Shown here: positions 20,837 to 33,545 of the stretch, one piece after another
Numbering within the stretch: the first letter of the stretch is position 1
Layout of the letters: each line of letters starts with the position of its first letter
NCBI GenBank assembly: GCA_022819905.1
Contig: JAJEGJ010000070.1
Span: 1 to 33,545 of the forward strand
Direction: 5' to 3'
DNA length: 33,545 nucleotides
Source: Alphaproteobacteria bacterium
Lineage (GTDB): Bacteria > Pseudomonadota > Alphaproteobacteria > TMED109
The notes under the pieces: generated by a model
What the model saw: only the letters and a program-made list of their open reading frames with translations
Databases searched by the model: none
Told to the model about the DNA's origin: nothing
Made by a program: the position numbers and the translations under genes

Positions 20837-21441
20837 TCACGCCTCGCCCGGGCGTGGCATGCGGTAGCCGACGCCGCGCTCGTTGAAGATGTCGGCGGGG
20901 CGCGCGGCTTCGTCGTCGAGCTTCGCGCGGAGCTGCCGGACGAACGCGCGCACGCGGTCGGTGTCGGTGGGCTCGCGCGCGTCCCACGCCTGGCTCAGCA
21001 GCGACTCCGACGTCACCACCTGTCCGGCGCTGACTGAGAGGATGCGCAGAATTTCGTACTCGGTGGCGGTGAGCGCCACTGCGTGCCCGTTCACCGTCAC
21101 CCGGCGGCGCACGTAGTCGATGGCGAGCGCACCGAGTACGAAGGGCGCCGAGCCCGCGCGGGCGCGCAGCGCCGCCCCGACCCGCGCGGGGAGCTCGTTG
21201 GCAGAGAAGGGCTTGACGATGTAGTCGGCGGCGCCGGCCTCGAAGGCGCGCGTGATGGTCTCGTCGCGGCCGTAGCCGGAGATGAAGATGACGGGCAGGT
21301 CGGAGAGTTCCGGGATCTCGGCCATGAGCTCGATGCCGCCGGTCCCGGGCAGCATGAGGTCGAGCAGCACGAGCTTGGGCTTTTCCGCGCGGATGAGGTC
21401 GGCAATCTCGCCCGGTCGGCGGTGACCCGCACGGCGTAGAA
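20837..21441 (-). pseudogene. OmpR-type response regulator, 5'-truncated and frameshifted
   Basis: The C-terminal two thirds are intact: phospho-acceptor Asp in 'LVLLDLMLPGTGGIEL', 'VIFISGYGRDE', Lys in 'DYIVKPFSANEL', then a winged-helix DNA-binding domain from 'YVRRRVTVNGHAVALTATEY' to 'FNERGVGYRMP'. Upstream of 'GEIADLIRAEKPK' the frame is broken near 21411-21416, where restoring one C would join 'YAVRVTAD' to 'PGEIADLI'. Beyond that, a stop codon (21444-21442) and the start of the HU pseudogene replace the missing first 25 or so residues with the acidic Asp pair. An in-frame ATG at 21454 could still yield a shortened protein without the acidic pocket. No sensor kinase is adjacent. Confidence 0.75.
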
Positions 21442-21664
21442 TTAAGAGGGACATCGTGGAGCGCGTCGCTGACGAGGCCGGGATCGCGAGACGGACGGCG
21501 GAGGCGGCCGTCGGCGCCGTGTTCGCCTCCATGGCGGAGGCTTGGCGCGCGGGGAGGATGTCGCCGTCACGGGCCTCGGCAGGTTTGCGAGCAAGGACCG
21601 GCCGGCGCGCGAGGGCAGGAACCCGAGAACCGGCGAGCGCCTCAACGGACATGAACGGGATTGA
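21441..21664 (+). pseudogene. HU-family DNA-binding protein, frameshifted and C-terminally truncated
   Basis: The plus strand encodes 'KRDIVERVADEAGIARRTAE' then 'AAVGAVFASMAEA' in one frame. After a one-base loss near 21537-21545 it continues in another as 'LARGEDVAVTGLGRFASKD' and 'REGRNPRTGERLN', ending at TGA 21662-21664. Together these are the N-terminal helices and beta arm of HU (including the 'GRNPRTGE' motif). The C-terminal 'PSFKAGK'-type strand and helix are missing, and the expected initiator is ATT (21441). The gene cannot make normal HU. Confidence 0.78.
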
Positions 21665-21950
21665 GGCCGCAGGGAGGCCGATCCCGACACGCCGGAAACC
21701 CGGGCGCGAACTGGCGGTGCGCGGGACCGGCGATCCGCGATCGCTTTGCTTGCCAGTGTAAATCGGGTAAAGATCGCAGGGAGTTGGTCATGCGGTCCCC
21801 GGCTGAGCTGCGCATATCGCGCGCCGGGAGTCGCCTTCACCGGGTTTGGAGGGGGTCATGGTGGGAGTTGCGAAGCGGGTCTGGTCTGGCGTTTGCGCCG
21901 CCGTCGCGGGCCGGAGCCTCGACACCGGGAAGCCGTCCTCGTCGCGGGGG

Positions 21951-21985
21951 TTGACAAACGCCGCTGAGGGTTCGGAGAGTATAAT
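21951..21985 (+). promoter_or_regulatory. Consensus -35 and -10 boxes upstream of the giant gene, wide spacing
   Basis: TTGACA (21951-21956) and TATAAT (21980-21985) are both perfect sigma-70 hexamers, but 23 bases apart instead of about 17. The pair is the best promoter candidate for the giant gene, though the spacing may make it weak or dependent on an activator. The rest of the interval 21665-22071 holds no other supported feature besides the tandem repeat. Confidence 0.5.
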
Positions 21986-21986
21986 A

Positions 21987-22050
21987 GTCGCCGGGTCGCC
22001 GGGTCGCCGGGTCGCCGGGTCGCCGGGTCGCCGGGTCGCCGGGTCGCCCA
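21987..22050. repeat. Tandem 8-bp repeat in the leader of the giant gene
   Basis: GTCGCCGG is repeated seven times without error from 21987 to 22042, followed by a partial eighth copy (GTCGCCCA, 22043-22050). It begins one base after the TATAAT box and ends 21 bases before the giant gene's ATG, so it would form the start of the 5' untranslated region. An ATG at 22050 directly after it opens a 24-codon frame that overlaps the giant gene start. Confidence 0.95.
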
Positions 22051-22071
22051 TGCTGCGTCCGCGTGACGGCG

Positions 22072-25000
22072 ATGAGGGTTCCCGCATGGCTGCGCGGTTC
22101 GCGCCGTCCGTCCTCCCCGCCTGAGTCTTCCCGTTCCGCCTCCGCCGGACGGCGCCTTGCCGCTTCCGGCAATTCCCAACCCTCCTTCCGCCACTATGCC
22201 CGCCTCATCGCGGGCGCGCACCACTTCTCCCGCTGGCCGCGTCCCGTTCTCGCCGCCGCGCTGCTCGCCCTGCCGCTGCTCGCCGGGCTGGCGCCCGGGG
22301 CGCAGGCGCAGACCACCCCGTCGCTCACCATCACCCCTGATGAGGTGGAGGCCAGCGCGTTCGCCGGCAGCAACACGGTCACCCTCACCCTGACGCCGGT
22401 CAACCGGACGTTCCTGGGTGCGGGCGCGGGCAACAATGTCGGCGGCAACTTCGGTACCAGCATCACGACTCTCTTTCACGCGGACGATTTTCCGTCAACC
22501 GCCAACACCTTTCCCGGAACGGCTCTCCGGTTCAGTTCAACCGGCTTGGGAAACATCACCCTGACCGGCGCGCCGACGGGGCTGACCATCACCGCCGGCC
22601 GCCTTCTCGCCCGGCAAACCAATCACCGCAATGCCGAGATCACGCTGTCCTACAGCGGCGCGGCGATCACGAGCGACACCGTGGTGACGGTGGCTGTCGA
22701 CGCTTTTCTCATACGAAAATCCGACGGCTCTGGCGACCACGGCCCCGCCCTCTCCGCCACCTTCACGCTGAAGGCCGCCACCGCGTCCACCGAGCCCGAG
22801 ATCACGATTGCGGCGGGGACGTCGCCGGTAACGGAGGGGACGGCTGCGACGTACACGCTGACGGCGAGCCCGGCGCCGACGTCGAACCTTGACGTGGAGG
22901 TGACGGTTGCGGACGCGCCGAACGCGGACTTCGTGACCGCCGCCAACCAGGGCACGAAGACGGTCAGGATCCCGTCCGGCTCGACCACGGCCACGGTCAC
23001 GGTCCCGACCGACAACGGCACCCCCCAGACGCCGGAGACGACCGACGAGCCGAACGGCCCGGTGAAGGTGACGGTGGAGACGGGCACGGGCTACACGGTG
23101 GGGACGGCGGACGAGGCCTCGGTGACGGTCAACGACAACGACGCGACGACGGTGACGCTGACGGGGGTGCGCACGGCGACGGTGGAGAGGCCCGGGAACA
23201 TCGGCAACCAGGCGGGCCGGTTCAGCATCAACCTGAACCGGGCGCTGCGGGCGGGCGAGGTCCTGGTGATTCCGTTCCAGTTCTCGGGCGGGACGCTGGG
23301 CACGGACTTCCGGCTGCAGCGGCTGAACGCCGTGACCGGGGTGGCGTACAACGCGAACACGGGGGTGGTGACCTTCACCGGCTCGGCCGGGGGTTCGAAC
23401 ACCAACCAGCATTTCTGGTTCATCGCCGAGAACGATGCGGACCGGGCGGACGAGAGCATCGGGATCACGGTGCCGGGGTCCTCGGAGAGCGGCACGCCGC
23501 GGATGACGGCGACGGGCCTGGGCGGCGGGGCTTCGGGCAGCGGCTCGGTGACGATCACGGTGAACGACGACGATCCCGCGCCGACGCTGTCGATAGTCCC
23601 GAATAAGGTGACGGTGCTCGAGGGCGGCGCGGCGAGGACATACACCGTCGCGCTGGCCAACGACCCGCGCGCTGACGTGACGGTGACAGCCGCGACCAGA
23701 GGCGGCGGTGCGGCAGCCGTGCAGCTGCGCACCGACGGCGCCTGGGCGTCGTCGGCGACGCTGAGCTTCACCGGCGGCGGCAGCGGCAACTGGGGCACCG
23801 CGCAGACGGTGGAGGTGCGCGGCACGCCGAACGACGGCAACACCGACCCCGAGACGGTGACGGTTTCGAACACGGTGACGGTGCCGACGAACAGCTTCAA
23901 CCGCTATCACGGCGCCAGGGCAGACGTGACGGTCAGCGTGGCGGATGCCCAGGGCACGCAGGCGTTGGTGGGGTTCTCGGAGACAGCCGTATCGATAAAC
24001 GAGGGCGACGGCGACCTGGTGTTAACCGTGACCAAGACCGGCAACCCCGCGGCAGCGGTCGCCTACGCCACCGCAGACGTTACGGCGAGCGGCGGCAGCG
24101 ACTACACCGCGACCTCGGGCACGCTGACCTGGGCGGCGGGCGACTCCGCGAGCCAGACGATCACGGTGCCGATCCTGGACGATTCCTTGCACGAAACCTC
24201 CGAGGCCTTCCGGGTGAGTCTGTCGTCGGTGGCGGGCACGCCCACCGTGATCGTCGATTCAGGTCACACCGCTACCATCCTTGACAACGACGCGGCGCCG
24301 ACGGCGGTGACGCTGTCGCTCAACCCGACGTCGGTGTCGGAGGGCGCCGGCGCGACCACGGTGACGGTGACCGCGACGGTGGGAGGGACGACGCGCTGGC
24401 GGGACGCGCGGACGGTGCGCGTCAGCGTGGCGGGCAGCGGCGGCACCAGCGTCGTCGGGCACACCGCGGTGGCGGATTTCGACCTGGTGATCCCGGGCGG
24501 CGACGCCACGGCGACGGAGACCTTCGAGCTGACGCCGACGGACGACGGCACGGAGACCAACGACGAGACGATCACGGTCTCGGGCACGCTCACGGACGTC
24601 ACGGTGGCGAGCGCGGACCTGACGATCGAGGACGACGACGGGGTCGTGGTGGTGCCTACGGTGGCGCTCACGGTGTCGGGCGGCGGTTCGGTGACGGAGG
24701 GGGGGACCCTGACGATCACGGCGACGCGGAGCGAGGCGAACGCGTCGGGGGCGGCGCTCGTCATCCCGATCCGGGTCAAGACGGGGGACACGACGGCGCA
24801 GGGCGCGGATTATTCGTTCCCGGCGTCGATCTCGATCGCGGACGGTGAGGCGACGGGGACGGCGACGTTCACGGCGTCCCAGGACACCGGCGACGAGCCG
24901 CCGGAGACGGTGACGGTGGAGCTCGGCGCGGTGCCGTCGGGGACGGTGGCGGGCTCGCCCCGCGAGGTGGCGATCACCATCGCCGACGACGACGCGACGG

Positions 25001-28000
25001 AGGTGACCCTGGCCGGGGCGGGCGGCGACGTCACCGAGGGCAGGACGAAGGAGATCACGATCACGCTGGGGCGCGGGCTGGTGAGCGGCGAGACACTGCC
25101 GGTGCCGCTGGTCTTCGGCTCCGCGGCGGGCGACGCGACCCGGGGGACGGACTACACCCTGGCCTGCCCGGACACGCTGCCGACGGGGGTGACGTGTACG
25201 AACCTGAACAGCGGCGCCAATCCCCGGGTGACCTTCACGGGCCCGTCGAACGGCATGACGGCGGCATCGGTGACGCTGACGCTGACGGCGACGCCGGACA
25301 GCACCGTCGAGACCGGGGGCGAGACGGTGGACATCGACCTCGGGACGCTGAACGCGAGCTCGGGCACGGGGCTCGGCGGCGGGGCGTCGGGGACGGACAA
25401 TCTGGCCGACTTCGACATCGTGGACCCGGCGACCGCGGACGGGGTGACGGTGTCGGAGAGCACCCTTGCGCTGACCGAGGGCCATGCGACGGACGGCACG
25501 AAGACCTACACGGTGCGTCTCGCCACGGACCCGGGCGCCGGGGCGACGGTGACGGTGACGGCGATGTCCGGAGACACCACCTCGGCCACGGTGTCGCCGG
25601 GGAGCTACAGCTTCACCGGCGGCGGTTCCGGGACCTGGGGCACGGCGCGGACCTTCACGGTGACGGCGGTCGAGGACGGCGACACGGCGGGCGAGACCTT
25701 CAACGTCACGCACACGGCGACGGCGTCGCCCACGAGCAACGACTACCACCAGATCTCCGTCGACCCGGTGGCGGTGACGGTGACCGACGCGGGCTCGGGC
25801 GTGATCGTCGACCCGCAGACCCTCGACGTGCGCGAGAACGGCGGCACGGCGACCTACTCGATCCGGCTCCTGAGCGCGCCGGGCGGCCCGGTGACGATCA
25901 CGCCGGACTCCAGCGACGACAGCCACGCGACGGTCTCGGGCGCGCTCACCTTCAACAACGGCAACTGGGCGACGGCGCAGGACGTGACGGTGACGGCGGC
26001 GGGCGCGGCGACGGACACGGCGACGATTACCAACCCGATCACGACGGGCACGACGGCCTACCCGACGACGACGAGCGTGGACGACGTCGAGGTCACGCTG
26101 ACGGCGGATGCGCGCCCGGTGGTCTCGATCGCCGCCGGCGATCCGGTGACCGAGGGCACGGACGCGGAGTTCACGGTGACGGTCGACCCCGCGCCGGCGT
26201 CGGGGCAGAGCCTGACGGTGCGCCTGCTGGTGATCGACGGAGGCGGGGACCGCGTGGACGCCGCCGACATAGGCCCCAAGACGGTGACCGTCGACGACAG
26301 CGGCAGCGCGGTCCATTCGGTGCCGACGCAGGGGGACGGGAACGACACGCGGAACGGCGCGGTGGCCGCGGCGGTCGTCCCGCCCGACGATGCACCCTAC
26401 CGCCGGGCAAACGGGGATTACGTTTCCGTCGTCATCCTCGACGACGATCCGACCTCGGTGACGCTGGCGCGGTCGGGCACGGGCGCGATCCTGGAGGAGG
26501 GCGGCACGGCGACGGTCACGGTGACGCTCGGGCGGCGGATGTTCTCGGGCGAGAGCGTCACGGTGCCGCTGACGGTGACCGGCGCCGGCATCGGCGCGGG
26601 CGACTACACGCTGACGCTGGCGCCGGGCTCGAATCTCAATACGGGGGTCGCCCTCGACACGACGGACCCGCACAGCGCGGCCCAGCCCGCGGTGACCTTC
26701 ACCGGCCACGGCGTGAACACGGTGCAGGTGGCGACGCTGACCCTGACGGCGGTCGGGGACGAGGCCGACGAGGGGACCTCGGAGACCCTGACGGTGGGGT
26801 TCGGCGCGGATGCGCGGGCGGTCATGAGCAACCTCGACCGCGCCTCGGGCACGGGCACGGGGGGCACCACGCCCACGGGCACGGCGGTGGTGGAGATCGC
26901 CGACAACGACGATCCGGCGGTGGCCGACGGGGTGACGGTGTCGGAGACCAGCCTTGCGCTGACCGAGGGGCACGCGACGGACGGCACGAAGACCTACACG
27001 GTGCGTCTCGCCACCGACCCGGGGTCCGGGGTGACGGTGACGGTGACGCCGACTTCCGGAGACACCACCTCGGCCACGGTGTCGCCGGCGAGCTACAGCT
27101 TCACCGGCGGCGGCTCCGGGACCTGGGGCACGGCGCAGACCTTCACGGTGACGGCGCTGGAGGACGGCGACACGGCGAACGAGGCCTTCAACATCACGCA
27201 TGCGGCGGTGGCCCCGTCCGGCAATGCCTACAACGCAATCAGCATTCCCGCGGTGGCGGTGACGGTGACCGACGCGGGTTCGGGGGTGATCGTCGACCCG
27301 CAGACCCTCGACGTGCGCGAGAACGGCGGCACGGCGACCTATTCGATCCGGCTTCTGAGCGCGCCGGGCGGCCCGGTGACGATCACGCCGAGGTCGGGCG
27401 ACACGAGCCATGCGACGGTCTCGGGGGCCATCAGCTTCACCGACTCCGACTGGCAGACCCCGAAGGACGTGACGGTGACGGCGGCGGGCGCGGCGACGGA
27501 CGAGGCGACGATTACCAACCCGATCACGACGGGCACGACGGCCTACCCGACGACGACGAGCGTGGACGACGTCGAGGTCACGCTGACGTCGGATGCGCGC
27601 AGTCTCCTGACCTTGAGCCTGTCGTCGACGGGCGGGGCCGAGGGGAGCACGGGCTACACCGACATCGACGTGACGGTGACGCGGCCGACGCCGGTGGGCG
27701 GCCCCGCGGACGTCTTCTACGAGCTCTGCTTCTCCGGCACCGCGACCCGCGACGAGAACGGCACGAAGACCGCGGCCGAGGACTACCAGGTGCTCAACTA
27801 CAGCTCCGGCAACGCGGTGCAGACCGCGTGGGGTACCGGCGCCAGGTCCGGATGCGTCGGAAACAACAACGTGGGACTGCCCACCGACGCTCCCAGCCAG
27901 ACGTGGAAGATCCGCGTGTTCGGCGACGCGGCGACCGAGCCCGACGAGACGGTGGTGGTGACGCTGCGCGCGGGCGCGACCAATCCCCTGCCGGACGGCT

Positions 28001-31000
28001 GGGGGATTTCCGGGGCGGGCAACCCGGCGACCTACACCATCGACGACGCGGGCACAGGTCCCGAGGTCTCGATCGGCCTGCCGTCGGTCGAGGGCGTGTC
28101 GCGGCGCAGCGGCGACAACGCGCTGCCCTACGAGGAGTCGGCGGAGACGGTGACGTTCAACGTGAGCGCGGACCCGGCGCCGGCCTCGGACCTCGAGGTG
28201 TGCCTGGCGGTGACGGAGACCGGCGGCGACCGGATCGCGTCGTCGGCGAAGGGGACGGGGCTGACGGTGACGATCCCGGCCGGCACGCTGAGCGTGGAGT
28301 ACGACATCGCCTGGACCGACACCGCGGCGGACGACCGCGACAGCGTGGTGACGCTGACGGCGCTGGCGCCGTCGCACAGCGCCTGCTCCGAGACCGGCTA
28401 CACGGTGTCGGCGACCGAGGATTCCGACCTGGCGGTGATCGTGGACGACGAGCAGACGGAGGTGACGCTGGCGGCGACGGACGCGGCGATGACCGAGGCG
28501 GACGCGGCGGACACGGCCGAGGTCACGGTGACGCTGGGGCGGCGCCTGTATGCCGGCGAGGTGGTGGTGGCGCAGGTCGACCTCTCGACTTCGACCGGGG
28601 CGCGGCTGCCGGACCATGCGACGCCGGACTTCGCGGTGAGCGCGGCGGGCTCGGGCGTGGCGCTGGCGGGGGCGAGCACGGTCGCCCCGCAGGTGACCTT
28701 CACCGGGCACGACACGAACACGGTGCGGACGGCCACGCTGACCTTCACGCCGGTGGCGGGCCGGGCCGACGCGGACACGACGGACGAGACGGTGACGGCG
28801 GCGCTGGCGACGAACGCCGTGCTGGGCGGCCTCTCCGGCACCAATGTGGGCGGCGGGGTGACGCGGGCGTCGGGCTGGAGCGCGGACCTCACCATCGAGG
28901 ACCGGCCCCAGGTGACGCTCACGGTGTCGGGGGGCGGCAGCGTGACCGAGGGCGGGAGTCTCACGGTCACGGCGACGCGCAGCCAGGCGAACCCGGACAC
29001 CTCGACGCTGTTCATCCCGATCCGGATCAAGACGGCGGACACCACGGCGCAGCCGGGGGACTACGCGTTCCCGCACACCACCATCGGCATCGCGTCGGGC
29101 GCGACGTCGGGCACGCGGACCTTCACGGCGATCGACGACAGCGCCGACGAGCCGGCGGAGACGGTCGTGATCGAGCTCGGCACGCTGCCCGCGGGCACGG
29201 TGGTGGGCGCGGCCGGCGAGGTGGAGATCACGATCGGGGACGGCGACGCGACCACGGTGGTCCTGGCCGGCCCGGACGGCAACGTGACCGAGGGCGACAC
29301 CAAGGAGTTCACGGTGACGCTGGGCCGCGGCCTGGTGGACGGCGAGGCGCTGGCGGTGCCGCTCGCCTTCGCCGGCACGGCGACCAGGGGCACGGACTAC
29401 ACCACGGCGTGTCCGGGCACGCCGCCGACCGGCGTCGTCTGCACCGACCTCAACAATGTCGGCGGCGGCAACAACCCCCGGGTGACCTTCACCGGCCCGG
29501 CGAGCGGCATGGCGGCGACGTCGGTGACGCTGACCCTGACGGCGGCGACGGACAGCATCTCCGAGAACGGCGGCGAGAGCGTGGAGATCGATCTCGGCAC
29601 GCTCGACGCGAACTCCGGCACCGGCTTGGGCGGCGGCGCGTCGGGGACCGACAGCCTGGATGATTTCGACATCGTGGACGCGGTGATCCCGACCGTGGCG
29701 CTGACGGTGTCGGGGGGCGGCAGCGTGACCGAGGGCCAGACCCTGACGCTCACGGCGACGCGGAGCGCGGCCAACGCGTCCGGCGCGGCGCTCGCGATCC
29801 CGATCCGGGTGAAGACGGCGGACACCACGGCGCAGTCCGCGGACTACTCGTTCCCCACGTCGATCAGCATCGCCAACAACGCCACGACCGGCACGGCGAC
29901 GTTCACGGCGAACCAGGACACGGGCGACGAGCCGGCGGAGACGGTGACGGTGGAGCTGCATTCGCTGCCGTCGGGGACGGCGGCGGGCTCGCCCGGCGAG
30001 GCGGCGATTACCATCGCCGACGACGACGCGACCGCGGTGACGCTGGCGGGACCGCCGGGCGACGTCACCGAGGGCGACACGAAGGAGATCACGGTGACGC
30101 TGGGCCGCGGCCTGGTGGACGGGGAGATCCTCCCGGTGCCGCTCGCCTTCGCGGGTGCTGCCACAAGGGGCACGGACTACACGACGGCGTGCCCGGGCAC
30201 GCTGCCGACGGGCGTCGCCTGCGACAACCTGAACAGCGGCGTCAACCCCCGGGTGACCTTCACCGGCCCGGCGAACGGCATGACGGCGACGTCGGTGACG
30301 CTGACGCTGACGGCGGCGACGGACAGCGCGACGGAGGCCGGGGGCGAGAGCGTGGAGATCGGCCTCGGCACGCTGAACGCGAACTCGGGCACGGGCCTCG
30401 GCGGCGGGGCTTCCGCGACGGACAGCCTCGCCGACTTCCGGATCCTCGACCCGGTGCTGACGCTGCTCTCGCTGGACGTGTCTTCGTCGGGCGGGGCCGA
30501 GGGCGATGCCGGCCACACCGACATCGACGTGACGGTGTCGAAGCCGGCGGGCAGCGCGGACGCCTTCTACGAGCTCTGCTTCTCGGGCTCGGCGACCCGC
30601 GACGAGGACGGCGCGAAGACCGCGGCCGAGGACTACCAGGTGCTCAGCCGCAGCGCCGGCAATCCGGTGCAGACCGGCTGGGGCGGCGGCGCCCGGGCCG
30701 GCTGCGCGGGGCTCGGCGGCTCCGTCCCCATGACCTCCGACCGCCACACCTGGAAGCTCCGGGTGTTCGGCGACACGGCGCCCGAGCCCTCCGAGACGGT
30801 GGTGGTGACGCTGCGCCAGAGCGCGGCGAACCCGCTGCCGCAGGGCTGGGGGATCGACGGGGCGGACAACCCGTTCACCTACACGATCGCCGACGACGAG
30901 CAGGCGCCGCCCTGCAGCAACTGCGTGTGGGTCACGGGCGGCCCGGACATCGAGGAAGGCGGGGTGGCCGAGTTCACGGTGCGCGCGAATCCGGTGCCGG

Positions 31001-33545
31001 CGCACGACCTGACGGTGCAGGTGTTCGTCCGGGATGCCGGGAGCAGGTCGGACTTCGTGCTCAGGCAGCATGAGGGCCTCCAGCACGTGCAGATCCGGGG
31101 CGGCGAGGGCGAGACGGTCCTGGGGGTGCCGACCCAGGACGACGCCGTGGACGAGCCGGACCACTCGGTGGGGGTGGACATCCGCGGCACCGACCGGGGC
31201 CGGAACGGCGGGGGCTGGAGCATCCCCGGCGGCCGGTACGAGAACGCGGCGGTGCAGGTGCGCGACAACGACGGGCCGCCGTCGGTGCCGGACTACGTGA
31301 TACCGGGGGTGAAGGTGACGGGCTTCGTCAGCGACTCCAGCCCCCGGCGGACGCAGGATGCGTATCCGGGGGAATGGGCTTATTTCCTGTGGGAGTTCGT
31401 GCTCGAGCAGGACGGCCACGGCAACGACGTCTACCCGGCGGCGCACCGCCAGCGGATGAATGTCAGCGGCGAGGTCGTCTCGTCCGTGCGCGGCCGGCTC
31501 TTCGGCGGCAGCCTCGGGCTCTCCATGGGCGAGCACAACCGGAGCTTCGGGGTGGCGGTCAAGGCGGTGCCGGGCGAGACGCTCACCGCGCGGGTGCTGC
31601 CGGCGGGCTACCGCGCCTGGTACAGCCCCGAACGCCCGAAGGTGCTGGACTACCGGGTGGTCGCGCCGTCGAGCCACGGCATCGACGTGGCGCTCAAGCG
31701 CCCGGGGACGGAGGCGGCGGTCCCGCCGGTGCTGACGCTCGCCCCCGATGCGGGCTCGGTGACGGAGGGCGGCACGGCGTCGTTCACCATCACCGCCGAC
31801 AGGGCGCCGCAGCAGGACGTCACGGTGCACGTGACGGCCGAGCAGAGCATGGGCGCGGGCGCCGACAGGATCGCCGTCGGGCGCGCCGAGCCGGTGCTGC
31901 TGAGGGCGGGCGAGACGTCCGTGACCTGGCGCTTCACGGCGTATTCGGACGACCGGGCGCGCGCCCACGGCACGATCGAGGCGCGCATCGACCCGGGCCC
32001 CTACAAGGTGGGCGTGCCGTCCACGGCGACGGTGACGCTGCTCGACGACGACGGCACGCCCGCGCCGCCGAACCTGGGCGGGACGACCCCGCCGGGGGTG
32101 GACCCGGCGCTGGTGGCGAAGGTGCGGAGCTACGCGGCGGAGACGCATCACGGCGCCGCGCATGTGCACCGCTGGAAGCGTGTGCTGGTGGCGTTCGGGG
32201 TGGAGTCGTATCCGGGCGTCGCCCCGATGACGGTGGCGGAGGCGCAGGCCCTCGCGGGGCTGCCGCGCTGGGTGCCGATCCCCGCGGCGATCCAGGCGGT
32301 CGAGGACGCGAAGGCGCAGGCCCCGGACGGGACGCCGCGGACGGCGCCGGAGGTGGACCCGGCGACGGGGGTGGACCCGGCGCTGGTGGCGAAGGTGCGC
32401 GGCTACGCGGCGGAGACGCATTACGGCGCCGCGCACGTGCACCGCTGGAAGCGTGTGCTGGTGGCGTTCGGGGTGGAGTCCTATCCGGGCGTCGCCCCGA
32501 TGACGGTGGCGGAGGCGCGGGCCCGCGCCAACCTGCCGCGCTGGGCGCCGATCCCCGCGGCGATCCAGGCGGTCGAGGACGCGAAGGCGCAGCAGCCGCA
32601 GCAGCCGGTCGTCGAGCCGGCGGTGACGGTCGCGGCGGGCGCGTCGCCCGTGACCGAGGGCGGCGATGCGGTCTTCACCATCACGGCAACGCCGGCCCCG
32701 TCGGCGCCGCTCGCGGTGACGGTGGCGGTGGCCGCCGACGGCGACTGGGGCGTCTCTGCCGGCGACCGGACGGTGACGATCCCGGCCTCCGGCAGCGCCA
32801 CGCTGACGCTGGCGACGGCGGACGACACGGCGGACGAGCCGGACGGCTCGGTGAGCGCGACGGTGAAGGACGGCAGCGGCTACACGGTGGGCGCGCCCGC
32901 TTCGGGCAGCGTCGTCATCCGGGACGATGACGATCCGCCGCCGGCGGTCGAGCCCGCGGTGACCATCGCGGCGGGCGCGTCGCCGGTGACCGAGGGCGGC
33001 GATGCCGTCTTCACGATCACGGCAACGCCGGCCCCGTCGGCGCCGCTCGCGGTGACCGTGGCGGTGGCCGCCGACGGCGCCTGGGGCGTCGCCGCCGGCG
33101 AGCGCACGGTGACGATCCCGGCATCCGGCAGCGCCACGCTGACGCTGGCGACGGCGGACGATGCCGCGGACGAGCCGGACGGCTCGGTGAGCGCGGCGGT
33201 GAAGGACGGCAACGGCTACGCGCCGGGTTCGCCCGCTTCCGCGACCGTCGCGGTCCGCGACAATGACGAGCCGGCGGTCGCCATTACGGCGGGCGCGTCG
33301 CCGGTGACGGAAGGCGGCGATGCGGTCTTCACGATCACGGCAACGCCGGCCCCGCACGCGCCGCTCGCGGTGACCGTGGCGGTGGCGGCCGACGGCGACT
33401 GGGGCGTGGCCGCCGGCGAGCGCACGGTGACCATTCCGGCGACCGGCAGCGCCGTGCTGACGCTGGCGACGGCGGACGACGCCGCGGTCGAGCCGGACGG
33501 CTCGGTGAGCGCGACGGTGAAGGACGGCAGCGGCTACAGCGTCGG
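22072..33545 (+). CDS. Giant exported Calx-beta repeat protein (3' end beyond window)
   Basis: One frame is open from ATG 22072 to the window end, at least 3,824 residues. A long basic leader (about 58 residues) precedes a signal core 'PVLAAALLALPLLAGLAPG' with likely cleavage after 'AQA' at residue 79. The rest is a chain of beta-sandwich modules with 'VTEGG..' starts and 'DDD/DND' ends. Residues 631-741 are a textbook Calx-beta domain ('GGSDYTATSGTLTW', 'DDSLHETSEAFRVSL', 'ILDND'). Such domains bind calcium and occur in very large adhesins and surface proteins. Several segments are long duplications listed separately; two non-Calx modules lie near 31288-31725 and 32098-32592. The sorting or outer-membrane C-terminus is not visible, so the secretion route is unknown. 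GTG 22063 is an alternative start; no strong ribosome binding site is seen. Confidence 0.9.
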   Translation, partial: MRVPAWLRGSRRPSSPPESSRSASAGRRLAASGNSQPSFRHYARLIAGAHHFSRWPRPVLAAALLALPLLAGLAPGAQAQTTPSLTITPDEVEASAFAGSNTVTLTLTPVNRTFLGAGAGNNVGGNFGTSITTLFHADDFPSTANTFPGTALRFSSTGLGNITLTGAPTGLTITAGRLLARQTNHRNAEITLSYSGAAITSDTVVTVAVDAFLIRKSDGSGDHGPALSATFTLKAATASTEPEITIAAGTSPVTEGTAATYTLTASPAPTSNLDVEVTVADAPNADFVTAANQGTKTVRIPSGSTTATVTVPTDNGTPQTPETTDEPNGPVKVTVETGTGYTVGTADEASVTVNDNDATTVTLTGVRTATVERPGNIGNQAGRFSINLNRALRAGEVLVIPFQFSGGTLGTDFRLQRLNAVTGVAYNANTGVVTFTGSAGGSNTNQHFWFIAENDADRADESIGITVPGSSESGTPRMTATGLGGGASGSGSVTITVNDDDPAPTLSIVPNKVTVLEGGAARTYTVALANDPRADVTVTAATRGGGAAAVQLRTDGAWASSATLSFTGGGSGNWGTAQTVEVRGTPNDGNTDPETVTVSNTVTVPTNSFNRYHGARADVTVSVADAQGTQALVGFSETAVSINEGDGDLVLTVTKTGNPAAAVAYATADVTASGGSDYTATSGTLTWAAGDSASQTITVPILDDSLHETSEAFRVSLSSVAGTPTVIVDSGHTATILDNDAAPTAVTLSLNPTSVSEGAGATTVTVTATVGGTTRWRDARTVRVSVAGSGGTSVVGHTAVADFDLVIPGGDATATETFELTPTDDGTETNDETITVSGTLTDVTVASADLTIEDDDGVVVVPTVALTVSGGGSVTEGGTLTITATRSEANASGAALVIPIRVKTGDTTAQGADYSFPASISIADGEATGTATFTASQDTGDEPPETVTVELGAVPSGTVAGSPREVAITIADDDATEVTLAGAGGDVTEGRTKEITITLGRGLVSGETLPVPLVFGSAAGDATRGTDYTLACPDTLPTGVTCTNLNSGANPRVTFTGPSNGMTAASVTLTLTATPDSTVETGGETVDIDLGTLNASSGTGLGGGASGTDNLADFDIVDPATADGVTVSESTLALTEGHATDGTKTYTVRLATDPGAGATVTVTAMSGDTTSATVSPGSYSFTGGGSGTWGTARTFTVTAVEDGDTAGETFNVTHTATASPTSNDYHQISVDPVAVTVTDAGSGVIVDPQTLDVRENGGTATYSIRLLSAPGGPVTITPDSSDDSHATVSGALTFNNGNWATAQDVTVTAAGAATDTATITNPITTGTTAYPTTTSVDDVEVTLTADARPVVSIAAGDPVTEGTDAEFTVTVDPAPASGQSLTVRLLVIDGGGDRVDAADIGPKTVTVDDSGSAVHSVPTQGDGNDTRNGAVAAAVVPPDDAPYRRANGDYVSVVILDDDPTSVTLARSGTGAILEEGGTATVTVTLGRRMFSGESVTVPLTVTGAGIGAGDYTLTLAPGSNLNTGVALDTTDPHSAAQPAVTFTGHGVNTVQVATLTLTAVGDEADEGTSETLTVGFGADARAVMSNLDRASGTGTGGTTPTGTAVVEIADNDDPAVADGVTVSETSLALTEGHATDGTKTYTVRLATDPGSGVTVTVTPTSGDTTSATVSPASYSFTGGGSGTWGTAQTFTVTALEDGDTANEAFNITHAAVAPSGNAYNAISIPAVAVTVTDAGSGVIVDPQTLDVRENGGTATYSIRLLSAPGGPVTITPRSGDTSHATVSGAISFTDSDWQTPKDVTVTAAGAATDEATITNPITTGTTAYPTTTSVDDVEVTLTSDARSLLTLSLSSTGGAEGSTGYTDIDVTVTRPTPVGGPADVFYELCFSGTATRDENGTKTAAEDYQVLNYSSGNAVQTAWGTGARSGCVGNNNVGLPTDAPSQTWKIRVFGDAATEPDETVVVTLRAGATNPLPDGWGISGAGNPATYTIDDAGTGPEVSIGLPSVEGVSRRSGDNALPYEESAETVTFNVSADPAPASDLEVCLAVTETGGDRIASSAKGTGLTVTIPAGTLSVEYDIAWTDTAADDRDSVVTLTALAPSHSACSETGYTVSATEDSDLAVIVDDEQTEVTLAATDAAMTEADAADTAEVTVTLGRRLYAGEVVVAQVDLSTSTGARLPDHATPDFAVSAAGSGVALAGASTVAPQVTFTGHDTNTVRTATLTFTPVAGRADADTTDETVTAALATNAVLGGLSGTNVGGGVTRASGWSADLTIEDRPQVTLTVSGGGSVTEGGSLTVTATRSQANPDTSTLFIPIRIKTADTTAQPGDYAFPHTTIGIASGATSGTRTFTAIDDSADEPAETVVIELGTLPAGTVVGAAGEVEITIGDGDATTVVLAGPDGNVTEGDTKEFTVTLGRGLVDGEALAVPLAFAGTATRGTDYTTACPGTPPTGVVCTDLNNVGGGNNPRVTFTGPASGMAATSVTLTLTAATDSISENGGESVEIDLGTLDANSGTGLGGGASGTDSLDDFDIVDAVIPTVALTVSGGGSVTEGQTLTLTATRSAANASGAALAIPIRVKTADTTAQSADYSFPTSISIANNATTGTATFTANQDTGDEPAETVTVELHSLPSGTAAGSPGEAAITIADDDATAVTLAGPPGDVTEGDTKEITVTLGRGLVDGEILPVPLAFAGAATRGTDYTTACPGTLPTGVACDNLNSGVNPRVTFTGPANGMTATSVTLTLTAATDSATEAGGESVEIGLGTLNANSGTGLGGGASATDSLADFRILDPVLTLLSLDVSSSGGAEGDAGHTDIDVTVSKPAGSADAFYELCFSGSATRDEDGAKTAAEDYQVLSRSAGNPVQTGWGGGARAGCAGLGGSVPMTSDRHTWKLRVFGDTAPEPSETVVVTLRQSAANPLPQGWGIDGADNPFTYTIADDEQAPPCSNCVWVTGGPDIEEGGVAEFTVRANPVPAHDLTVQVFVRDAGSRSDFVLRQHEGLQHVQIRGGEGETVLGVPTQDDAVDEPDHSVGVDIRGTDRGRNGGGWSIPGGRYENAAVQVRDNDGPPSVPDYVIPGVKVTGFVSDSSPRRTQDAYPGEWAYFLWEFVLEQDGHGNDVYPAAHRQRMNVSGEVVSSVRGRLFGGSLGLSMGEHNRSFGVAVKAVPGETLTARVLPAGYRAWYSPERPKVLDYRVVAPSSHGIDVALKRPGTEAAVPPVLTLAPDAGSVTEGGTASFTITADRAPQQDVTVHVTAEQSMGAGADRIAVGRAEPVLLRAGETSVTWRFTAYSDDRARAHGTIEARIDPGPYKVGVPSTATVTLLDDDGTPAPPNLGGTTPPGVDPALVAKVRSYAAETHHGAAHVHRWKRVLVAFGVESYPGVAPMTVAEAQALAGLPRWVPIPAAIQAVEDAKAQAPDGTPRTAPEVDPATGVDPALVAKVRGYAAETHYGAAHVHRWKRVLVAFGVESYPGVAPMTVAEARARANLPRWAPIPAAIQAVEDAKAQQPQQPVVEPAVTVAAGASPVTEGGDAVFTITATPAPSAPLAVTVAVAADGDWGVSAGDRTVTIPASGSATLTLATADDTADEPDGSVSATVKDGSGYTVGAPASGSVVIRDDDDPPPAVEPAVTIAAGASPVTEGGDAVFTITATPAPSAPLAVTVAVAADGAWGVAAGERTVTIPASGSATLTLATADDAADEPDGSVSAAVKDGNGYAPGSPASATVAVRDNDEPAVAITAGASPVTEGGDAVFTITATPAPHAPLAVTVAVAADGDWGVAAGERTVTIPATGSAVLTLATADDAAVEPDGSVSATVKDGSGYSV
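24661..25425 (+). repeat. Long repeat A, copy 1 (255 codons)
   Basis: This runs from 'VALTVSGGGSVTEGGTLTIT' to 'LADFDIVD' and spans about two Calx-type modules, including the cysteine pair in 'LACPDTLPTGVTCTNLNS'. Near-identical copies are at 28912-29679 and 29695-30450. Confidence 0.85.
25438..26115 (+). repeat. Long repeat B, copy 1 (226 codons)
   Basis: This runs from 'DGVTVSESTLALTEGHATDG' to 'DVEVTLTADAR'. It includes 'SYSFTGGGSGTWGTARTFTV' and 'GVIVDPQTLDVRENGGTATY'. The second copy is at 26926-27600. Confidence 0.85.
26926..27600 (+). repeat. Long repeat B, copy 2 (225 codons)
   Basis: This matches 25438-26115 over its whole length at protein and largely DNA level. The main differences lie in the central part ('HAAVAPSGNAYNAISIPAV' against 'HTATASPTSNDYHQISVDPV'). 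Confidence 0.85.
27604..28047 (+). repeat. Long repeat C, copy 1 (148 codons)
   Basis: This module contains 'FYELCFSGTATRDENGTKTA' and 'WKIRVFGDAATEPDETVVVT' and ends 'TYTIDD'. The cysteine in 'YELCF' and a later one in 'ARSGCVG' are kept in copy 2 at 30457-30897. Confidence 0.8.
28912..29679 (+). repeat. Long repeat A, copy 2 (256 codons)
   Basis: This copy starts 'VTLTVSGGGSVTEGGSLTVT' and ends 'LDDFDIVD'. It lies 15 bases before copy 3, so copies 2 and 3 form a tandem pair. Confidence 0.85.
29695..30450 (+). repeat. Long repeat A, copy 3 (252 codons)
   Basis: This copy starts 'VALTVSGGGSVTEGQTLTLT' and ends 'LADFRILD'. It keeps the cysteine pair 'TACPGTLPTGVACDNLNS'. It is followed at once by repeat C copy 2. 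Confidence 0.85.
30457..30897 (+). repeat. Long repeat C, copy 2 (147 codons)
   Basis: This matches 27604-28047, with 'FYELCFSGSATRDEDGAKTA' and 'WKLRVFGDTAPEPSETVVVT'. Both cysteines are retained. Confidence 0.8.
31288..31725 (+). other. Unassigned non-Calx domain inside the giant protein
   Basis: About 146 residues of different character interrupt the Calx-like chain: richer in aromatic and charged residues, with 'WAYFLWEFVLEQDGHGNDVY', 'GSLGLSMGEHNRSFGVAVK' and 'RAWYSPERPKVLDYRV'. I do not recognise the domain. It occurs once in the window. Confidence 0.6.
32098..32370 (+). repeat. Repeat D, copy 1: His/Trp-containing helical module
   Basis: This is a 273-bp unit with a core of about 74 residues: 'VDPALVAKVRSYAAETHHGA' then 'AHVHRWKRVLVAFGV' and 'PMTVAEAQALAGLPRW'. 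It looks helical and is not a Calx-beta domain. The copy at 32371 is almost identical in DNA; the linker after the core differs. Confidence 0.85.
32371..32592 (+). repeat. Repeat D, copy 2
   Basis: This is the second copy of the helical module ('VDPALVAKVRGYAAETHYGA', 'AHVHRWKRVLVAFGV'). It directly follows the first and differs at only scattered bases over the core. Confidence 0.85.
32614..33545 (+). repeat. Repeat E: three tandem Calx-like units
   Basis: Units begin at 32614, 32950 and 33268 (336 and 318 bp apart), and the third runs off the window. Each reads 'GASPVTEGGDAVFTITATPA', then 'VTVAVAADG.WGV.AG' and 'TVTIPA.GSA.LTLATADD'. The DNA is nearly identical over long stretches, which points to recent expansion or gene conversion. 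More units are likely beyond the edge. Confidence 0.88.

Follow-up and report, generated by a model that had tools for sequence, protein, structure and literature searches.

The locus described here raises the question of what a short tandem repeat does when it lies between a promoter-like TATAAT box and the start of a giant gene. In the window, by which we mean the whole stretch of 33,545 nucleotides that was analyzed, a tandem array (GTCGCCGG) x 7.75 covers positions 21987-22048 of the plus strand, forming 62 bp of a 100% perfect 8-bp repeat. A single A separates the start of the array (21987) from the TATAAT box (21980-21985, plus strand), which lies 23 bases past a TTGACA box (21951-21956, plus strand). 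The array, its position one base past the TATAAT box and the 23-base spacing had all been described in the original prediction and were found as stated, while the gap between the array and the ATG of the giant frame (22072), given there as 21 bases, measures 23 bases. The 62 bp of perfect period-8 sequence compare with at most 19 bp in order-3 Markov simulations of the window. No other perfect arrays (period 4-14, at least four copies) were detected in the window, nor in the remaining contigs of this genome that served as control, approximately 319 kb that exclude one contig reading as N, and the array of GTCGCCGG units occurs only once in the whole genome. Neither RNA families nor tRNAs were detected in the window, and a plasmid search with positions 21440-22500 gave no match. 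An exact 24-mer search retrieved three IMG/VR viral contigs with short GTCGCCGG-type and 7-11 bp arrays (L017-L019).

The gene that follows the array is an ORF of more than 3,800 amino acids on the plus strand (22072-33545), with its first ATG at 22072 and an in-frame GTG at 22063, which is still open at the window end. It contains Calx-beta domains (PF03160, 84.6 bits versus a Pfam gathering cutoff of 27) and a signal-peptide-like core at approximately 22243-22311, ending in LAPGAQAQ, and we presume a surface role for this and the other giant proteins. Near-identical tandem repeats of 273 bp and approximately 336 bp are located at 32093-33538, and since the contig ends within them, the gene must be longer than the window. 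The opposite strand of the giant gene holds an open frame of 3,094 aa (24259-33543, minus strand), probably a by-product of GC-rich repetitive codons. The region upstream of the array (20837-21760) contains a minus-strand response-regulator ORF in which the first third of the receiver domain is missing (the Pfam match begins at profile position 33). This ORF adjoins a plus-strand HU/IHF-like sequence with an apparent frameshift, and we read the pair as decayed genes that a rearrangement brought together.

The array lies within a second, shorter open frame. This frame begins with GGAGGGGG-TC-ATG (21848-21860), in which GGAGGGGG (21848-21855, plus strand) is a Shine-Dalgarno (SD) sequence with an anti-SD duplex energy of -9.8 kcal/mol. 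From the ATG at 21858, the frame continues for 88 amino acids through the TTGACA box (codons Leu-Thr), the TATAAT box (codons Ser-Ile-Ile) and the array to a TGA at 22122-22124 (plus strand), which closes it at the present copy number and is part of a CCTGA common to most loci. The enrichment of SD sequences and open frames described below suggests that this putative leader ORF (21858-22124, plus strand) is coding. The original prediction had proposed that an ATG at the repeat's edge opens a short overlapping frame that could act as a leader peptide. The ATG is indeed present at 22050. It lies inside the longer SD-led frame as one of its codons, and the short frame (22050-22124, plus strand) consists of this internal Met and the tail of the leader ORF. 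As the edge ATG is also not conserved in paralogues, a separate short leader peptide was rejected. Upstream of the leader ATG, the window offered no convincing promoter; at several other loci, plausible promoters further upstream were recognized by eye only.

The leader frame is a recurrent property of these loci. Considering only loci with enough upstream sequence, and counting an ATG as SD-bearing when its SD match was -5 kcal/mol or better, such an ATG was open into the array at 30 of 36 loci, compared with 10.0 +/- 2.6 expected from dinucleotide shuffles, although the loci are related, so that both this statistic and that for phase overstate independence. The mean SD energy of the array-open ATGs was -6.3 kcal/mol, versus -2.6 for the non-open ATGs of these regions (p = 8e-7 by rank test, the loci not being independent) and -2.7 for all ATG triplets in the control contigs. 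The starts that follow the array had a mean of -2.8, that is, no SD beyond background. Besides, the distance between TTGACA and the leader ATG was a multiple of 3 at 23 of 27 loci, across a range of -6 to 108 nt, and the odd 23-bp spacer between TTGACA and TATAAT goes with coding phase. The leader ATG distance differs among subfamilies (27 to 197 nt), and within one subfamily the leader amino acids are alike across genera (MGANSFRGLCRAFALIKI, MGANPFRGLCCALSLIKI, MTGAIWLRVLLRAFSLIKL). Aligned leader ORFs showed no excess of third-position changes (111/118/126 by codon position), so the amino-acid constraint on the leader is weak, while the changed triplets, scored by summed BLOSUM, came out as more conservative when read in the leader frame (+203) than in the other two (-11 and -56). 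SD-led frames are open into the array three times as often as expected, so that the repeat 5' of the surface-protein gene is probably translated as part of the leader frame, despite the absent third-position excess.

The same arrangement was detected elsewhere in the genome of the window, where seven further 5- or 8-bp arrays are located at the starts of other long ORFs. When the upstream region was compared with the rest of the genome by blastn, related 5' regions appeared at further long ORFs, all with arrays of their own: (GCCGGGAC)12.4 on C44, before an ORF with Calx-beta; (TTGCCGGG)14.6 on C98, a contig that begins inside the array; (CCGCCGAG)9.5 on C27; and an array reduced to approximately 1.75 units on C61. 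A protein search added (GCCGA)12.8 on C81, where the contig again begins inside the array and the downstream ORF carries Calx-beta. A pattern search added (GCCGGGAC)4.25 on C66, (GCCGCCGA)8.75 on C93, before an ORF with a LapA-type domain, and (GCCGA)13.6 on C2, before an ORF with fn3 and cadherin domains. The domains named here are those of the downstream ORFs that were tested. Most repeat units share a GCCG or GCC core, and the unit length is 5 or 8 bp at all analyzed loci, both 2 modulo 3 and thus not a multiple of three. The array has been lost at C61 and at G002:C54.

Approximately 30 more arrays were found in relatives and in MAGs from Ircinia sponges. Genomes of the same genus (G001, G002 and G006) have such arrays before related ORFs, as do MAGs named Alphaproteobacteria, Pseudomonadales, Defluviicoccus, Bryobacterales and Nitrospirales, these names being bin labels, so that part of the cross-phylum sharing could be mis-binning. 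One giant gene occurs in bins labeled Alphaproteobacteria and Nitrospirales with flanks 95-96% identical (L095 and L096), which points to either horizontal transfer or mis-binning. Many of the array-bearing MAGs carry the 'jk18' prefix used in a study of the Ircinia sponge microbiome, in which Calx-beta is a eukaryotic-like domain enriched across bacterial phyla (PMC9531527), and the genus relation of the window organism to G002 (record JAJDWH) suggests that it is a sponge symbiont as well. In a class-wide survey of 385 genomes, the octamer pattern occurred in 5 and the pentamer pattern in 4. Among the matches inspected, those of G221 (C161, C68, C3), G399 and G322 share the anatomy in whole or in part, and G221:C166 has its upstream half, including TTGACA-N23-TATAAT-array; the anatomy was absent at the inspected matches G221:C87, G314, G372 and G373. 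Two variants were also observed. At L123 (G001:C19, positions 1-162), a GAGAGCC-type 7-bp array grades into a 5-bp GAGCC array right before a long ORF, apparently a change of unit length in progress. In one subfamily (L128-L141 of G062 and G065, e.g., L137 and L141), a 20-bp interval that holds an inverted repeat like GGGGATTTCCCC separates TTGACA from a CAYAAT-like box, which recalls the arrangement of MerR-type regulated promoters.

Copy number differs between closely related loci. For this comparison, we relied on pairs with at least 88% flank identity over long stretches and on the contrast between 70% and 98-99% identity in one set of three loci, and ignored many pairwise flank identities of approximately 80% as alignment artefacts of permissive end gaps. 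A comparison of repeat number between related loci, which the original prediction had named as a check, showed 9.2 copies of AAGCC at G002:C5 versus 15.2 at L096, with flanks 95-96% identical; the difference of 6 units in this sole close pair of orthologues keeps the frame, and both loci are off in the sense defined below. Two loci of the same bin with flanks 88-89% identical carry 14.4 (G64C5) and 8.4 copies (G64C6) of GCCGGATC. The set of three, all in one genome (G65C46, C49 and C59, or L131, L132 and L133), has 17, 15.8 and 24.8 copies and downstream regions 98-99% identical, while the leaders are only approximately 70% alike, and leaders may possibly have been swapped at these arrays.

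We propose that the array is a simple-sequence contingency locus within a translated leader, acting by translational phase variation of the opa type, and consider this reading probable, if not strongly so. Transcription would begin upstream of the leader ATG, and ribosomes would load at the strong SD and ATG (21858 in the window) and translate across the array, so that the repeat number modulo 3 would set which of three frames reaches the giant gene. In one state, the leader would be in frame with the giant ORF and yield a fusion of leader, array and giant protein. In another, the leader would stop at an [AGT]TGA that overlaps the giant start, and coupled reinitiation, of an efficiency that we presume sufficient, might follow. 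In the last state, here called off, the leader stop would lie beyond the giant start and leave the giant gene with little or no expression. Gain or loss of such 5- or 8-bp units by replication slippage would be expected to flip the state.

The sequences downstream of the arrays are consistent with three such states. In the window, the GTG of a GTGA at 22063-22066 (plus strand) belongs to the giant frame and its TGA to the third frame, and an [AGT]TGA overlap in the giant frame within 60 nt of the array was found at 24 loci. Of the two wrong frames, one usually ends at the stop-start overlap and the other approximately 15-30 codons past the array, often at the CCTGA. At every listed locus whose first in-frame ATG lies within 60 nt past the array, the base at +4 is A, compared with 52 of 163 control ORFs, and several different second codons follow this ATG. 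The present 7.75 copies in the window correspond to a leader ending at 22122 (off), while 8.75 copies would be in frame and 9.75 would end at the GTGA at 22063. By our own reading of the frames, about 9 loci would be fused, 5 coupled and 20 off. A wider reading, to which we give slightly less than even odds, is that a three-state switch of this kind, powered by slippage of 5- or 8-bp repeats within an SD-led leader that embeds a promoter-like element, controls large groups of genes for giant eukaryotic-like surface proteins across several nominal phyla of bacteria in sponge microbiomes, and that it has passed from one phylum to another together with the genes. The idea that slippage varies surface genes is plausible, as arrays stand at the 5' ends of many giant genes and copies differ between orthologues, but the form in which it was originally put, with slippage changing leader length and structure and sparing the coding frame, is not supported, given the SD-led frames that cross the array and units of 5 and 8 bp that shift the frame.

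A promoter or 5'UTR rheostat, which comes near the original prediction, would account for part of these observations in another way: the transcript would start at the array edge, the repeats would tune leader length or structure, and translation would start from 22063 or 22072. At most loci, a TTGACA-like box precedes the array by 33-41 nt and an ATAAT-like box adjoins it, and these conserved boxes use codons unusual for a genome of 67% GC, which suggests a promoter embedded in the leader. If this element were the main promoter, the transcript would start near the array start and omit the leader ATG. Start codons with normal-looking signal peptides abut the array at G65C46, C49 and C59, and hmw provides a precedent (PMC2651432). 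However, the promoter-like boxes adjoin the arrays with non-standard spacing, since spacers of 16-23 are poor for sigma-70, and the promoter scan of the window gave no hit; the starts after the array have an SD no better than background; the upstream SD and ATG, and the frame that they lead across the array, would be left unexplained; and RNA structure of the arrays ranges from strong to almost none, depending on the unit. Because folding energy per base differs approximately 20-fold between units, a common RNA structure was rejected as the shared mechanism. We regard the rheostat as doubtful, and the conserved TTGACA/TATAAT-like element nevertheless keeps it a live rival. The two mechanisms are also compatible, as two promoters could give frame-dependent and frame-independent transcripts.

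The contrast between nearly identical downstream regions and dissimilar leaders at G65C46, C49 and C59 could also mean that the arrays are mainly recombination joints for swapping leaders and giant coding regions, with secondary effects on frame, as could C66 and C93, which have related coding starts and different arrays and upstream regions. Units that vary by locus leave little homology between arrays, duplication followed by divergence fits as well, and the SD and frame pattern would go unexplained, which makes this role quite improbable. We give even less credence to neutral microsatellites expanding in a fast-evolving 5' region without a regulatory role. The loss of the array at C61 and G002:C54 speaks for this view, but neutral repeats would hardly be missing from the approximately 319 kb control while starting eight long ORFs of the same genome, nor would they, with different units, sit at one place in one architecture in several nominal classes and phyla.

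Eukaryotic-like proteins, Calx-beta among them, are believed to mediate the association of symbionts with sponges (PMC9531527). If a large number of the giant ones were phase-variable, every symbiont population would combine different surface states, much as mucosal pathogens do, and simple-repeat contingency loci would extend to uncultured symbionts with a recurrent architecture across nominal phyla. In practical terms, automatic annotation may misplace the starts of array-led giant genes, and assemblies tend to break at the arrays. Within the limits of the collection searched, the literature held no account of sponge symbionts with phase variation, and the text of the Ircinia Calx-beta paper makes no mention of phase variation or tandem repeats (PMC9531527), while its proteins share the domain, and its MAGs the 'jk18' naming, with several loci here. 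Overall, we interpret the arrangement as a variation on known contingency loci that recurs in sponge-associated MAGs, the leader-length reading being corrected towards frame switching.

In the opa genes of Neisseria, coding CTCTT repeats lie in the signal-sequence region, and fewer gonococcal opa genes are in frame than the null of 1/3 predicts (PMC13183285). The loci described here resemble opa in having a short repeat (5 bp in opa, 5 or 8 bp here) of a length that is not a multiple of three, at the 5' end of a surface-protein gene family and in a region that is probably translated, and in that one genome holds several such loci that differ in frame state. Unlike opa, the array lies in a leader before a second possible start, and the stop-start overlap predicts a third state; the units differ from gene to gene, the proteins are of a giant Calx-beta/fn3 repeat type, promoter-like boxes are embedded in the leader, and switching is predicted from sequence. 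In H. influenzae, the hmw1A and hmw2A genes for very large adhesins are preceded by tandem repeats with units of 7, 8 or 9 bp (PMC2651432). Our loci resemble them in unit size, in the placement of the repeat next to a promoter or promoter-like element of a gene for a very large surface protein, and in a unit that differs by locus or strain. As described for hmw, however, the repeats occupy the promoter region and modulate transcription, whereas here an SD-led frame crosses the array. Since translation of the giant ORF may start independently and the case for switching is one of sequence, we do not claim proven membership of either system; by working principle, the arrays appear closest to opa, and by position they resemble hmw.
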